Positions 1,323 through 23,579 of a stretch of DNA of 52,309 nucleotides are shown here, in pieces; positions within the stretch are counted from its first letter, which is position 1, and the number at the start of each line of letters is the position of its first letter. The notes below the pieces were generated by a model, which ran no database searches, was not told where the DNA came from, and saw nothing but the letters and a program-made list of their open reading frames with translations. This DNA is from a virus: IMG/VR virus record IMGVR_UViG_3300027759_000121, positions 1-52,309 of that record, one strand, 5' to 3'. A program made the translations under genes and the position numbers.

Positions 1323-3083
1323 ATGAAGAAAAAGTTAATAACGGAATCGGGAATAAGAAACATCAGGGAATTATCTAGAAGATACCCTGAGGCTAAAATA
1401 TATTTTCACAAAGATTTAGATGGTGTAACCACTGCGTTAGGTATGAAAAATTACTTAGAACAACACGGTATTAAAGTAGTCGATTCTGAAATTATTCAAT
1501 ACGGAGATAAAGAATGGGCTATACAAAAAGCAATTACTGAAGAATTAAGTGAAAAGATAGATTTTGTTTTAAATAAAATTAGAAAAATTCTTTTAGATGC
1601 TGGTTATAATATTAATGGTACGGATGAGTTTGATTTATCAGAATTATTAAAAAATCATATAAATCAAACCCAAATTGGGGATTCTATTGGTGAGGTTATT
1701 AGAAAAAGTGAATCATTACTTAATGAATTAAAGTTTTTATTAGATGATAGGGTTATGCCGGTGTTAGTTGACTTTGCTCATGGTAAACCAATGTTTATCA
1801 TACATACGGATCACCACGACACACAAGCTGGTGTTGAACAAGGTACCTCAACTAATTTTAAATCATCAAGATCTAACGTTGAAACAATATCTCAAACTGT
1901 ATCTCCAAGAGACATTTTCCCTTCTGATGATATTACTTTGATATCTACGGTTGACTCGGCAAATTATGCACAATACGATATTAGTCCTGAACAAGTAATG
2001 AACTATTTGTTTAAGGTAGATAAAGATCAGTCATTACAAAGAAACAAAATGGCAATGGGTATGGTTGCAAATAAATTGTTATTGGCATTTAAAAACAAAC
2101 CAGGGTTCTTAGAAAATATTGTGATGAATGCAAATCCATCTTTATTAAGTATATTATTAAACATCAGATCTCAGATCAAAGAAAAAAATTATACCGATGT
2201 AGAATCTTTGGAAAAAAACAAAGAGAATTATGTCCAAACAATGAAAACTCACAAAAATGTTAAAGTTGATAATAAAATTATAGTTCAGTATGGTGGTGGT
2301 AGTATGATGAAACCAGGATCATATGATAGATACACACCATTCAGAAATAATCCTGATGCTGACTTTATAGTAATTGCTTGGCCATTAGGGTTAGTACAAG
2401 CGTCTTGTAATCCATTTAAGAAAGAAAGAGCACTTAAAGGTGTAAACTTGGGTGACATCAAAGATGAGGTCTTAAACAAGTGGAAAGGACAACTACAAGA
2501 TAAGGATATTCCTTTATCCACAATAAAATGGATATCTGAATCAGGAAAAGGTTTTGGTGAACAATCTGTTGGTTTTACATTCAGAGATTTTAACGCACTA
2601 TATGGTAAAGAATTTAAACAAATGGCTGATGGGGAAGATATTCTTAAGGATGTTGATACTGCAATGAGAAAACCTTTCAGTAGTTTAACGGATAAAAAAA
2701 TGAGAATGTTAGATTCAATTAGTGTAAATGCTTGGGATTTAATTCAAGCCAATAGTGGAGGACATAAATGTATTACTAATATTTCTGGTTTAAGTTATTT
2801 AGGTAGATCTAAGAGACCACCTGAAGGTAAGTACAAATATAATGAAGAGTCAGATGATTCACCTTATGTTAAATTTACTAAGATGGTACAGAATGAATTT
2901 GTTAGAGTTTTAAAAGCAAAAATTGATGAAGATGGTGGTGATAGATATGAACCAAATTTTGAGGTTGAAATGACGGAACACGCAAGATCATTAGGAAATG
3001 CTAGAAAACAAGGACAAGGATTAAGATTCTCAAAATCGGCAGTAAAATCAAATCAAATGAGATTTAGACCAAATAATAGATAG
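1323..3083 (+). CDS. DHH-family phosphoesterase-like protein
   Basis: 586 residues. HKDLDG (29-34) and HTDHHD (about 161-166) match motifs I and III of DHH phosphoesterases (RecJ/NrnA type), which use two metals to hydrolyse phosphodiester bonds in nucleic acids or nucleotides. The N-terminus MKKKLITESG resembles the capsid-targeting-like leaders found elsewhere in the window, with I-T-E as a possible cleavage site. The basic last ~34 residues (NARKQGQGLRF ... MRFRPNNR) are closely similar to the tail of the otherwise unrelated protein at 37733-38929. The middle ~400 residues are not recognised. The substrate is unknown. Confidence 0.75.
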   Translation: MKKKLITESGIRNIRELSRRYPEAKIYFHKDLDGVTTALGMKNYLEQHGIKVVDSEIIQYGDKEWAIQKAITEELSEKIDFVLNKIRKILLDAGYNINGTDEFDLSELLKNHINQTQIGDSIGEVIRKSESLLNELKFLLDDRVMPVLVDFAHGKPMFIIHTDHHDTQAGVEQGTSTNFKSSRSNVETISQTVSPRDIFPSDDITLISTVDSANYAQYDISPEQVMNYLFKVDKDQSLQRNKMAMGMVANKLLLAFKNKPGFLENIVMNANPSLLSILLNIRSQIKEKNYTDVESLEKNKENYVQTMKTHKNVKVDNKIIVQYGGGSMMKPGSYDRYTPFRNNPDADFIVIAWPLGLVQASCNPFKKERALKGVNLGDIKDEVLNKWKGQLQDKDIPLSTIKWISESGKGFGEQSVGFTFRDFNALYGKEFKQMADGEDILKDVDTAMRKPFSSLTDKKMRMLDSISVNAWDLIQANSGGHKCITNISGLSYLGRSKRPPEGKYKYNEESDDSPYVKFTKMVQNEFVRVLKAKIDEDGGDRYEPNFEVEMTEHARSLGNARKQGQGLRFSKSAVKSNQMRFRPNNR

Positions 3084-18788: not shown

Positions 18789-19652
18789 ATGAATAATAAA
18801 GAACTAAAGAAAAAAGAATGTTTGTTTGAGATCGCCGATGATTACACCAATGGTATGGACATATATAATCATAATGGATCTTTTTGGTTGATTAACACCA
18901 AAGAATTAAAATGGATGATTGAATTTACTAAAGATAAAACATTGTGGTATAATTACAATGTTTTTAAATCTTTATTTAAAGCAATGTCTTTGGATGTTAT
19001 GAAAAATCAAGAATATATTACCGAATGGTTTGAGTCAAGATTTCTTAAACCTGAGGTGGTTGAAGATACCATTCAAAATGGGGCGAAGTATACCCGATGT
19101 AGCCAACATTCTTATTGTTTATTGGTTGAAGATACCATTCAAAATGGGGCGAAGTATACCCAACCAAATATCCACTCTACCCTCAGTATTGTTGAGAATA
19201 CCATTCAAAATGGGGTGAAACACACCGATCACTCGTGCGATAACATCACCAGAGGTGTTGAAGATACCATTCAAAATGGGGTTAAGCGCACCGTACCTGA
19301 ATCAATTGCCGATTCATTCGCTATTGAAGACACCATTCAAAATGGGGTGAAACACACCATTCAAGGAACAAATTGTGTAAACACAGATGTTGAAGATACC
19401 ATTCAAAATGGAGTGAAACACATCTTTAATAGAACCCGACCAGACAATTTTGACGTTGAAGACACCATTCAAAATGGGGTAAAAGAAACTGAATTGCACA
19501 AAGGAGTTAGACCGTTGGCCGTTAATGACACCATACAAAATGGGGTGAAACACACCCAACGTCGTCTTTTTTCTTTTTGTTGTAGTGTTGAAGACACCAT
19601 TCAAAATGGTAGAAAACAAGATGTGTGGAATGAACACTTAAATAAAAAATAG
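18789..19652 (+). CDS. Repeat-array protein with hypervariable units
   Basis: 287 residues. Residues 1-90 form a unique N-terminal domain (GSFWLINTKELKWMIEF ... YITEWFESRFLKPEV). Residues 91-278 are nine 12-residue repeats of type VEDTIQNGVKHT alternating with eight 10-residue segments that share nothing with each other. The protein ends NGRKQDVWNEHLNKK, which resembles HGRKQAAWAEYLRKK in the 22647 gene, suggesting the array grew inside an ordinary coding sequence. Repeat differences are often synonymous (GAT/GAC, AAA/AAG, GGG/GGA), so the protein reading seems to be under selection. Function unknown. Confidence 0.75.
   Translation: MNNKELKKKECLFEIADDYTNGMDIYNHNGSFWLINTKELKWMIEFTKDKTLWYNYNVFKSLFKAMSLDVMKNQEYITEWFESRFLKPEVVEDTIQNGAKYTRCSQHSYCLLVEDTIQNGAKYTQPNIHSTLSIVENTIQNGVKHTDHSCDNITRGVEDTIQNGVKRTVPESIADSFAIEDTIQNGVKHTIQGTNCVNTDVEDTIQNGVKHIFNRTRPDNFDVEDTIQNGVKETELHKGVRPLAVNDTIQNGVKHTQRRLFSFCCSVEDTIQNGRKQDVWNEHLNKK
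19059..19622 (+). repeat. CRISPR-like 36/30 array inside a reading frame
   Basis: Repeats start at 19059, 19125, 19191, 19257, 19323, 19389, 19455, 19521 and 19587, a strict 66-bp period. Each is 36 bp (starts GTTGAAGATACCATTCAAAA, then GGGGTGAAACACACC) and the last diverges after about 23 bp. The eight spacers are all exactly 30 bp and unrelated. By hand count their G+C is about 30-50% (mean near 40%), above the AT-rich surroundings. The dimensions are those of a CRISPR array, but repeats are degenerate, no cas gene is nearby and the frame is open throughout. Confidence 0.85.
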
Positions 19653-22646: not shown

Positions 22647-22913
22647 ATGTTGAAAAATTTTGTAAAATGGTTTGAAATAAACTGTGGATGGTTTTTTACA
22701 CATGGTAGAAAACAAGCTGCGTGGGCGGAATACTTAAGAAAAAAATATGGTAAAGAGGAAACTAAAAAACCAACTCGTATCACGTTTAGTCCAACACCTA
22801 AATGTTTAATTTGTGAAACTGACATGGAAACAATAAAATTAAACCAACCATTTTGTGGTGGATGTCTATCTGTTTTGACGGGATTAGTTAAAAATAAGAA
22901 AGATGAAATTTAA
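22647..22913 (+). CDS. Small zinc-ribbon protein
   Basis: 88 residues. The N-terminal part contains HGRKQAAWAEYLRKK, related to the last residues of the repeat-array protein. The C-terminal part has CLICETDM and CGGC, a likely four-Cys zinc site. It precedes the thymidylate synthase gene by 9 nt. Confidence 0.7.
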   Translation: MLKNFVKWFEINCGWFFTHGRKQAAWAEYLRKKYGKEETKKPTRITFSPTPKCLICETDMETIKLNQPFCGGCLSVLTGLVKNKKDEI

Positions 22914-22922
22914 ATATAAGTT

Positions 22923-23579
22923 ATGAATACATTAGATAAAAAATACACAGATTTACTCCAAGATATATTAGATAATGGAGTCCGCAAGGAGGATCGTACT
23001 GGGACAGGCACACTTTCAGTATTCGGAAGACAGATTCGTCATAATATGAAAGATGGGTTTCCACTCATTACAACCAAAAAGATGGCTTGGAAAACTATGG
23101 TAACCGAATTACTATGGTTTTTAAGAGGTGAAACAAACATTAAATTCTTATTGGATAATGGATGTCATATATGGACGGGTGATGCCTATAAAGTTTATGA
23201 TGAAGACTTTGACCGTGAACACCCAGCATTCAGTGCACCATACCCGAAAAGACTTACTCAAAAAGAATTTGAAGAGAAGATTATGACTGATGACGAATTC
23301 AATAAATGGTATGGAGACCTAGGTCCAATTTATGGACATCAATGGAGAGAATGGAAACACATTAAAGAAGGTGGTTATTTACTTAAAAATGGAAATGAAG
23401 GTAAAGGGACAACCACTAGACATATAGACCAAATCTCAAATCTAATCAACGACCTTAAAACAAACCCAGATTCAAGACGTTTGATGGTTAATGCTTGGAA
23501 TGTAGCTGATTTACCAGTTACTGATTATAGGACTGATGATGAACTTTATCAAGATTATTTAAAGAATGGGATTATGTAG
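22923..23579 (+). CDS. thyA: Thymidylate synthase, N-terminal half (split)
   Basis: 218 residues. It contains the ThyA phosphate-binding DRTGTGT (24-30), the ELLWFLRGETN helix, GDLGPIYGHQWR and the SRRLMVNAWNVADLP strand, then stops just before the catalytic PPCHYGFQ motif, which is encoded 0.8 kb downstream in another gene. ThyA makes dTMP from dUMP with methylene-tetrahydrofolate. All N-half residues are intact, so it probably assembles with the second half. The last 17 residues (TDYRTDDELYQDYL ...) are not typical ThyA. Confidence 0.9.
   Translation: MNTLDKKYTDLLQDILDNGVRKEDRTGTGTLSVFGRQIRHNMKDGFPLITTKKMAWKTMVTELLWFLRGETNIKFLLDNGCHIWTGDAYKVYDEDFDREHPAFSAPYPKRLTQKEFEEKIMTDDEFNKWYGDLGPIYGHQWREWKHIKEGGYLLKNGNEGKGTTTRHIDQISNLINDLKTNPDSRRLMVNAWNVADLPVTDYRTDDELYQDYLKNGIM

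Follow-up and report, generated by a model that had tools for sequence, protein, structure and literature searches.

Diversity-generating retroelements introduce targeted variability inside a protein. Clustered regularly interspaced short palindromic repeat (CRISPR) arrays of 36/30 geometry hold unrelated spacers of fixed length between near-identical 36-bp repeats and have a degenerate distal end. In multicore precursors of ribosomally synthesized and post-translationally modified peptides (RiPPs), among them those of cyanobactins and microviridins, conserved recognition sequences alternate with variable cores. Regularly interspersed arrays with hypervariable spacers that are not CRISPR arrays have been reported as well, two of which are described as being expressed as small RNAs (PMC10910872). 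Borg elements contain amino-acid tandem repeats that are perfect, in-frame, rapidly evolving and often disordered (PMC9879509). Here we analyze a gene in a viral DNA of 52,309 nucleotides (IMG/VR record IMGVR_UViG_3300027759_000121, positions 1 to 52,309; this whole stretch is called the window), the product of which joins an N-terminal domain (N-domain) to an array with the dimensions of CRISPR. Its features are as follows.

18789..19652, plus strand: array gene, 287 amino acids in a single open frame, composed of the N-domain, nine repeats and eight variable segments
18789..19049, plus strand: N-domain, residues 1-87, alpha-beta-beta-beta-beta-alpha-alpha as predicted by AlphaFold2 from 43 relatives
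19059..19622, plus strand: repeat array of the VEDTIQNGVKHT type, nine 36-bp repeats with a period of 66 bp and eight 30-bp variable segments
19095..19124, plus strand: variable segment 1, RCSQHSYCLL
19161..19190, plus strand: variable segment 2, QPNIHSTLSI
19227..19256, plus strand: variable segment 3, DHSCDNITRG
19293..19322, plus strand: variable segment 4, VPESIADSFA
19359..19388, plus strand: variable segment 5, IQGTNCVNTD
19425..19454, plus strand: variable segment 6, FNRTRPDNFD
19491..19520, plus strand: variable segment 7, ELHKGVRPLA
19557..19586, plus strand: variable segment 8, QRRLFSFCCS

The best explanation of this locus, to which we assign a probability of about 0.6, is an array of peptide cassettes exchanged by recombination. 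The phage protein would consist of the folded N-domain and, behind it, a modular tail built from units of 22 residues, 12 of them conserved and 10 variable. The 36-bp repeats, conserved as DNA, would serve as homology arms; homologous recombination at them would let co-circulating large phages gain, lose and swap whole units. The frame would survive such an exchange because one unit measures 66 bp.

The array resembles the CRISPR format in its unrelated fixed-length spacers, near-identical 36-bp repeats and degenerate distal end. In contrast to CRISPR, it is translated in one frame with its spacers under protein constraint, it has no cas1, protospacers or repeat fold in the searches made, and its repeat varies by protein subfamily, mostly resembling the protein's own domain end there. 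With the arrays of PMC10910872 it has in common interspaced repeats, hypervariable spacers and the lack of cas genes; it differs in being itself protein-coding and in residing in phages. The Borg repeats (PMC9879509) are likewise rapidly evolving in-frame repeats of giant elements, but those are perfect tandem repeats, whereas each phage repeat is trailed by an unrelated 10-residue segment. Unlike in diversity-generating retroelements, the changes affect whole units instead of scattered substitutions, and no reverse transcriptase (PF00078) was found in the 39 array-bearing records, which are often incomplete, while three control genomes were positive. The multicore RiPP precursors differ from the phage array, for which no YcaO was found, the units of which are exchanged between phages, and the older segments of which vary widely in length.

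At the protein level, 12-residue repeats occur nine times and alternate with eight mutually unrelated 10-residue segments. The repeat starts (19059, 19125, ... 19587) are strictly spaced by 66 bp and all are in the frame of the open reading frame (ORF) 18789-19652; the period of 36 + 30 bp keeps this frame. With a Tandem Repeats Finder (TRF) score of 177, the repeats are far above chance. The nine-repeat, eight-spacer array with an open frame described in the initial annotation is thus confirmed, and its remark that spacer G+C exceeds that of the genome holds: the value is 39.6% for the spacers and 39.8% for the repeats, compared to 30.9% for the window and 27.0% for the first 270 bp of the gene. 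Its view of the repeat differences as largely synonymous was correct in part. GAT/GAC, AAA/AAG and GTG/GTT/GTA are silent changes, but the amino-acid replacements V/I, D/N, E/N, A/V, H/Y/R/E and T/I also occur among the window repeats.

The locus is a protein-coding array and not a CRISPR array. In a scan of 2.9 million viral contigs for the 20-nt repeat core ACCATTCAAAATGGGGTGAA, in which reading frame was not a condition, 487 of 487 exact copies were found in the expected frame of an ORF of at least 60 codons. The N-domain is carried by 81 of the 86 distinct ORFs with the core; four of the other five are cut by a contig end, and in the fifth (L290) a stop codon splits the N-domain from the array. 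Homologous spacer matches are in the same frame in 688 cases, off-frame in none and reversed in one. The ratio of nonsynonymous to synonymous polymorphism (pN/pS) of the spacers is 0.394 (95% confidence interval, CI, 0.326-0.471; groups built on DNA identity), and 0.32 (CI 0.16-0.58) when only units with a canonical repeat are considered. No stop codon is present in 9,290 spacer codons of an ORF-selected set, against about 705 expected for independent, identically distributed bases. Both pN/pS and frame conservation show that each variable segment is kept as a peptide after its appearance in an array.

The array gene is a member of an unannotated superfamily of large, little-known phages. A protein search in IMG/VR returned five close relatives with similar arrays, and an N-domain profile matched 101 loci in one scan of viral contigs (80 of the 101 matches are listed), on contigs of up to 309 kb. 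A second N-domain profile and the 20-nt repeat core, each used in a scan of its own, brought in further members. The common layout is a folded domain of ~87 residues followed by up to ~26 units, each with 12 conserved residues and 10 variable ones. Parsing of the units in 98 non-redundant arrays gave 1,057 repeats and 724 distinct variable segments, 505 of them exactly 30 nt; since the repeat-profile parser applies a score cut-off, repeats that have degenerated strongly end up inside long 'spacers'. The short segments form 436 groups, with 286 confined to one array, and the Chao1 estimate of the segment pool is at least about 1,000. The N-domain profile had no match in GTDB genomes, and no credible match came from a tblastn search of 50,697 phage genomes; a match to the tape-measure protein of Bacillus phage Ray17 (23% identity) was judged compositional. 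The repeat VEDTYNLRGVTT, used as a query, matched no phage; relatives with other repeats were found through the N-domain. The family is not described in the literature surveyed, which covers subscription papers thinly. One 309-kb phage has, besides its main array gene, several N-domain paralogues (L311:18355-19678, L312:3690-4046), some with short arrays of a different repeat. Near-perfect palindromic variable segments with a terminator-like appearance are present in unit 4 of L230 (GAAGTCGAAAATTTCGACTTC) and unit 8 of L292 (AAAGTGGTTGAATTTGACCACTTT), and hairpins with a stem score of 6-7 occur in spacers at roughly double the frequency seen in shuffles.

The paralogues of the 309-kb record define a second branch. 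Their N-domains end in ...EWVESVLNGGVTTT or a close variant and their repeats read VESALNCGVTTT or VESVLNGGVTTT; phages found through them have the repeats VEEVLNHKVSTT, VEEVLKRGVSST, VEEVLNCKVETT and others. Profile comparison relates the two branches with a probability of 99.4% (E 1.3e-21). The 12-residue repeats of the second branch are mostly copies of each protein's own N-domain end, and 90 of 94 segments are exactly 10 residues long in proteins with an automatically definable domain end. In the window branch the domain end has often diverged from the repeat, and the identity of the two is visible in some members (L144, L218). Considering that the second branch has repeats of another sequence that mostly match their own domain end, the 36/30 geometry is that of a 22-residue protein period. 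The N-domain paralogues L110:5399 and L142:1180, which have no array, end in ...PGEYDWxKDFEVDxVIExGK and resemble a long module inside arrays, YSDKIPHEYDWSDEFTEE. This resemblance suggests that some array modules may be derived from paralogue tails.

Turnover occurs at the level of whole units, and identical units recur across phages. L147 and L148 are identical in N-domain DNA with the first unit swapped, and L151 and L149, again with identical N-domain DNA, differ by one inserted unit. Phages with N-domains 35-60% identical have 112 modules in common, about two dozen of them at 100% spacer DNA identity. Two window segments belong to the modules with identical DNA in distant phages: the 30 nt of segment 4 are also found in L002 and L005 as well as in L305 (N-domain 56% identical), and those of segment 5 in L261 (N-domain 45% identical). 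Segment 7 differs from its L002 copy by synonymous changes only. Whole-unit differences between near-identical phages, together with identical spacers across such divergent N-domains, indicate that the units are recombining cassettes, and we infer homologous recombination as the pathway of exchange. In the two main clades, the repeat codons GTT, ACC, ATT, CAA and AAT are used in about 80-100% and GGG in 64-77% of the matching residues. This conservation of repeat DNA across divergent clades beyond the need of the protein fits recombination through the repeats. A CRISPR-typical array format can thus arise within a protein gene, with units moving between distantly related phages.

Several observations weigh against the proposed cassette array. 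Turnover is not always fast, as 19 contigs of different metagenomes carry one 25-repeat array with a difference of a single residue. RecA-like ORFs of 332-343 amino acids in 8 of 13 large records count in its favor, but these weak matches are below the family cut-off. No database names the domain or the cassettes: the best Pfam E value of 0.022 is below the cut-off, the best PHROG value for the window protein is 0.003, and NCBIfam and PADLOC gave no match for the family. The N-domain is well modeled by AlphaFold2 (predicted local distance difference test, pLDDT, about 75-95 per 10-residue block; last helix at residues 74-86), but fold comparison gave no PDB match, only a few uncharacterized proteins of uncultured phages. 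The array tail has pLDDT below 40 in the window branch, and in the second branch low-confidence beta strands appear in the best of five models. The tail may therefore be either a solenoid or disordered, and the constant segment length may be due to structure or to how units are formed. Moreover, recombination alone does not account for the origin of more than 400 unrelated segments.

The 36/30 geometry and the polarity of the array, as well as the mistranslated CRISPR arrays known in databases (PMC7673337), speak for a true or recently CRISPR-derived array, or a crRNA mimic, with a frame that stays open by chance or came to be translated secondarily. This reading is already contradicted and hardly credible: the GTDB genomes, 257 billion bases, contain no stretch that fits a degenerate exact pattern of the repeat, Cas1 (PF01867) is present in 0 of 39 array-bearing records, often incomplete ones, the repeat is not predicted to fold better as RNA than its shuffles (z -0.26 to +0.54), the repeat sequence changes with the protein subfamily, and both the missing stops and the in-frame position of all 487 repeat copies, not selected for frame, oppose it. 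The geometry alone is insufficient to identify a CRISPR array. A crRNA mimic or RNA decoy, as entertained in the initial annotation, is disfavored by the absence of a fold signal and by spacers that keep frame and protein sequence; acquisition by host Cas1-Cas2 is not supported either, given the same absence of the repeat from GTDB genomes and of cas1 from the 39 records, and the subfamily-specific repeats. Its first possibility, a phage-borne diversified protein array, fits best with a coding locus of hypervariable, unrelated spacers, and the protein-level selection it saw on the repeats is upheld, as they are kept at both protein and DNA level. A leader-like domain, recognition-like conserved repeats and hypervariable cores of fixed length could also be those of a multicore precursor, with the repeats as processing sites and the 10-residue segments as released or modified peptides. 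However, YcaO, the enzyme class searched for, was found in 0 of 33 array-bearing records, no modification or protease partner is among ten Pfam-scanned window ORFs, and older segments are 7 to 87 residues long, which makes this very unlikely. An ordinary tandem-repeat protein, formed by tandem duplication with the 10-residue segments diverging afterwards by drift or positive selection, was the alternative to which slow substitution or mutual alignment of spacers would have pointed in the initial annotation. Spacers common to related phages do change slowly and mostly synonymously, and there are a few within-array duplicates (DYFEYTNNTL twice in L147). On the other hand, the spacers cannot be aligned as diverged repeats, and units turn over whole. 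Where adjacent repeats are at least 94% identical (66 pairs), spacer identity is 0.273 versus 0.281 for random pairs, with one pair reaching at least 0.6. Spacers beside near-identical repeats being as different as random ones, simple duplication plus drift is ruled out; pN/pS is below 1 in canonical-repeat units also (0.32, as above). The tandem-duplication reading is already contradicted, and we regard it as improbable.

New segments might instead be captured in a CRISPR-like manner: a hypothetical enzyme would insert ~30 bp of foreign or random DNA beside the N-domain and duplicate the adjoining 36-bp repeat, and older units would drift 3'. Such capture, which is compatible with later shuffling of units, would explain that repeats become less identical the farther they lie from the N-domain (correlation within arrays -0.574, null standard deviation, sd, 0.038; second branch -0.627, null sd 0.137), that modules in common with distant phages lie distally (+0.26), and that the exact 10-residue length is commonest close to the N-domain. 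In L316, the DNA of repeats 1-3 matches the N-domain end at 97-100% identity, and their spacers are unrelated. Young segments are taken here as those that have a canonical repeat and occur in no more than two arrays, which orders them by repeat state and does not date them. Their composition is near-random and largely strand-symmetric, with C = G and a small codon-position bias, while old segments are coding-like. However, close relatives show only weak polarity (mean correlation 0.148; the sign is positive in 10 of 14 groups), the repeat gradient might stem from gene conversion with the N-domain end, and an integrase-like partner was not identified. No protospacer was found above shuffles in phage DNA around the family loci, and the spacer search suggested in the initial annotation yielded no source, 72 young spacers (joined by N runs) giving a single chance-level match of 27 nt in 50,697 phage genomes. 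When all viral contigs were scanned for the two palindromic spacers, every match fell in a contig known to have the repeat core, the position inside an array not having been confirmed by eye for each match. Weighing both sides, we consider capture unlikely. We are equally reserved, or slightly more so, about a full protein-coding counterpart of CRISPR adaptation, in which 30 bp of outside DNA and a fresh domain-end repeat would be added beside the N-domain and older peptides kept, shared and selected. The locus raises a testable question, namely how new fixed-length in-frame peptide cassettes come about when neither a reverse transcriptase nor Cas1 is detectable. A 46-nt match to Marine virus AG-341-P01 adjoins photosystem genes and was set aside as unrelated. 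Frameshifted or inverted reuse of spacers, considered as a source of novelty, was not seen (0 off-frame, 1 reverse match).

Returning to the cassette array, the tail could serve for multivalent display of short binding peptides against variable targets, such as host or competitor proteins, with the N-domain as anchor, and cassette exchange would renew the peptide repertoire. We put this function forward tentatively, with less than even confidence; it is favored because the segments are hydrophilic-leaning, maintained as peptides, diverse and exchanged. Taken together, the arrays hold hundreds of short peptides selected by phages, a natural library that could reveal which targets large phages have to recognize again and again.

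The 3' end of the window array involves two further features.

19608..19652, plus strand: unusual C-terminus GRKQDVWNEHLNKK, seemingly acquired by fusion with the tail of a 22647-22913-like gene
22647..22913, plus strand: small protein with a tail matching the C-terminus of the array gene; relatives read KWFEIKFGWFFINGRKQEVWAEYLRKKY

The ninth repeat passes into the different tail GRKQDVWNEHLNKK, and the last 45 nt of the gene are identical at 36 of 45 nt to the matching stretch from 22704. Since the C-terminal ends of other arrays are unlike that of the window, its own end was probably lost and replaced by fusion with the tail of a gene like 22647-22913. The relationship of the NGRKQDVW end to the 22647 protein that was recognized earlier is therefore real (36/45 nt), but its interpretation changes: the 3' end of the array is probably fused to the tail of that gene, and the 22647 protein is not an array-free ancestor. 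The ancestor-like part of the array gene is the N-domain, not the 22647-like tail.

Neighboring genes named by Pfam are a HAD phosphatase of the RNA-repair type, a cyclic-phosphate receiver domain and a thymidylate synthase, which provide no clear context for function. The thymidylate synthase ORF (22923-23579) aligns with the Pfam model over positions 1-139 of 266 only, and an unrelated ORF comes next at 23566, so that the gene looks truncated or interrupted. For the DHH-domain protein at 1323-3083, the sole INPHARED relatives are in two metagenomic phages of 634,780 and 642,428 bp and are 39-44% identical. Short amphipathic starts (MNLQENIQRIQSMMG, MRDLIKKILKEE, MKIILTETQ) are common to many ORFs of the window (5018, 9920, 33018, 34169, 38926, 39724, 41409, 44101, 47832, 48260, 49012), and we take them to recall the capsid-targeting leaders of internal head proteins in T4-like phages.
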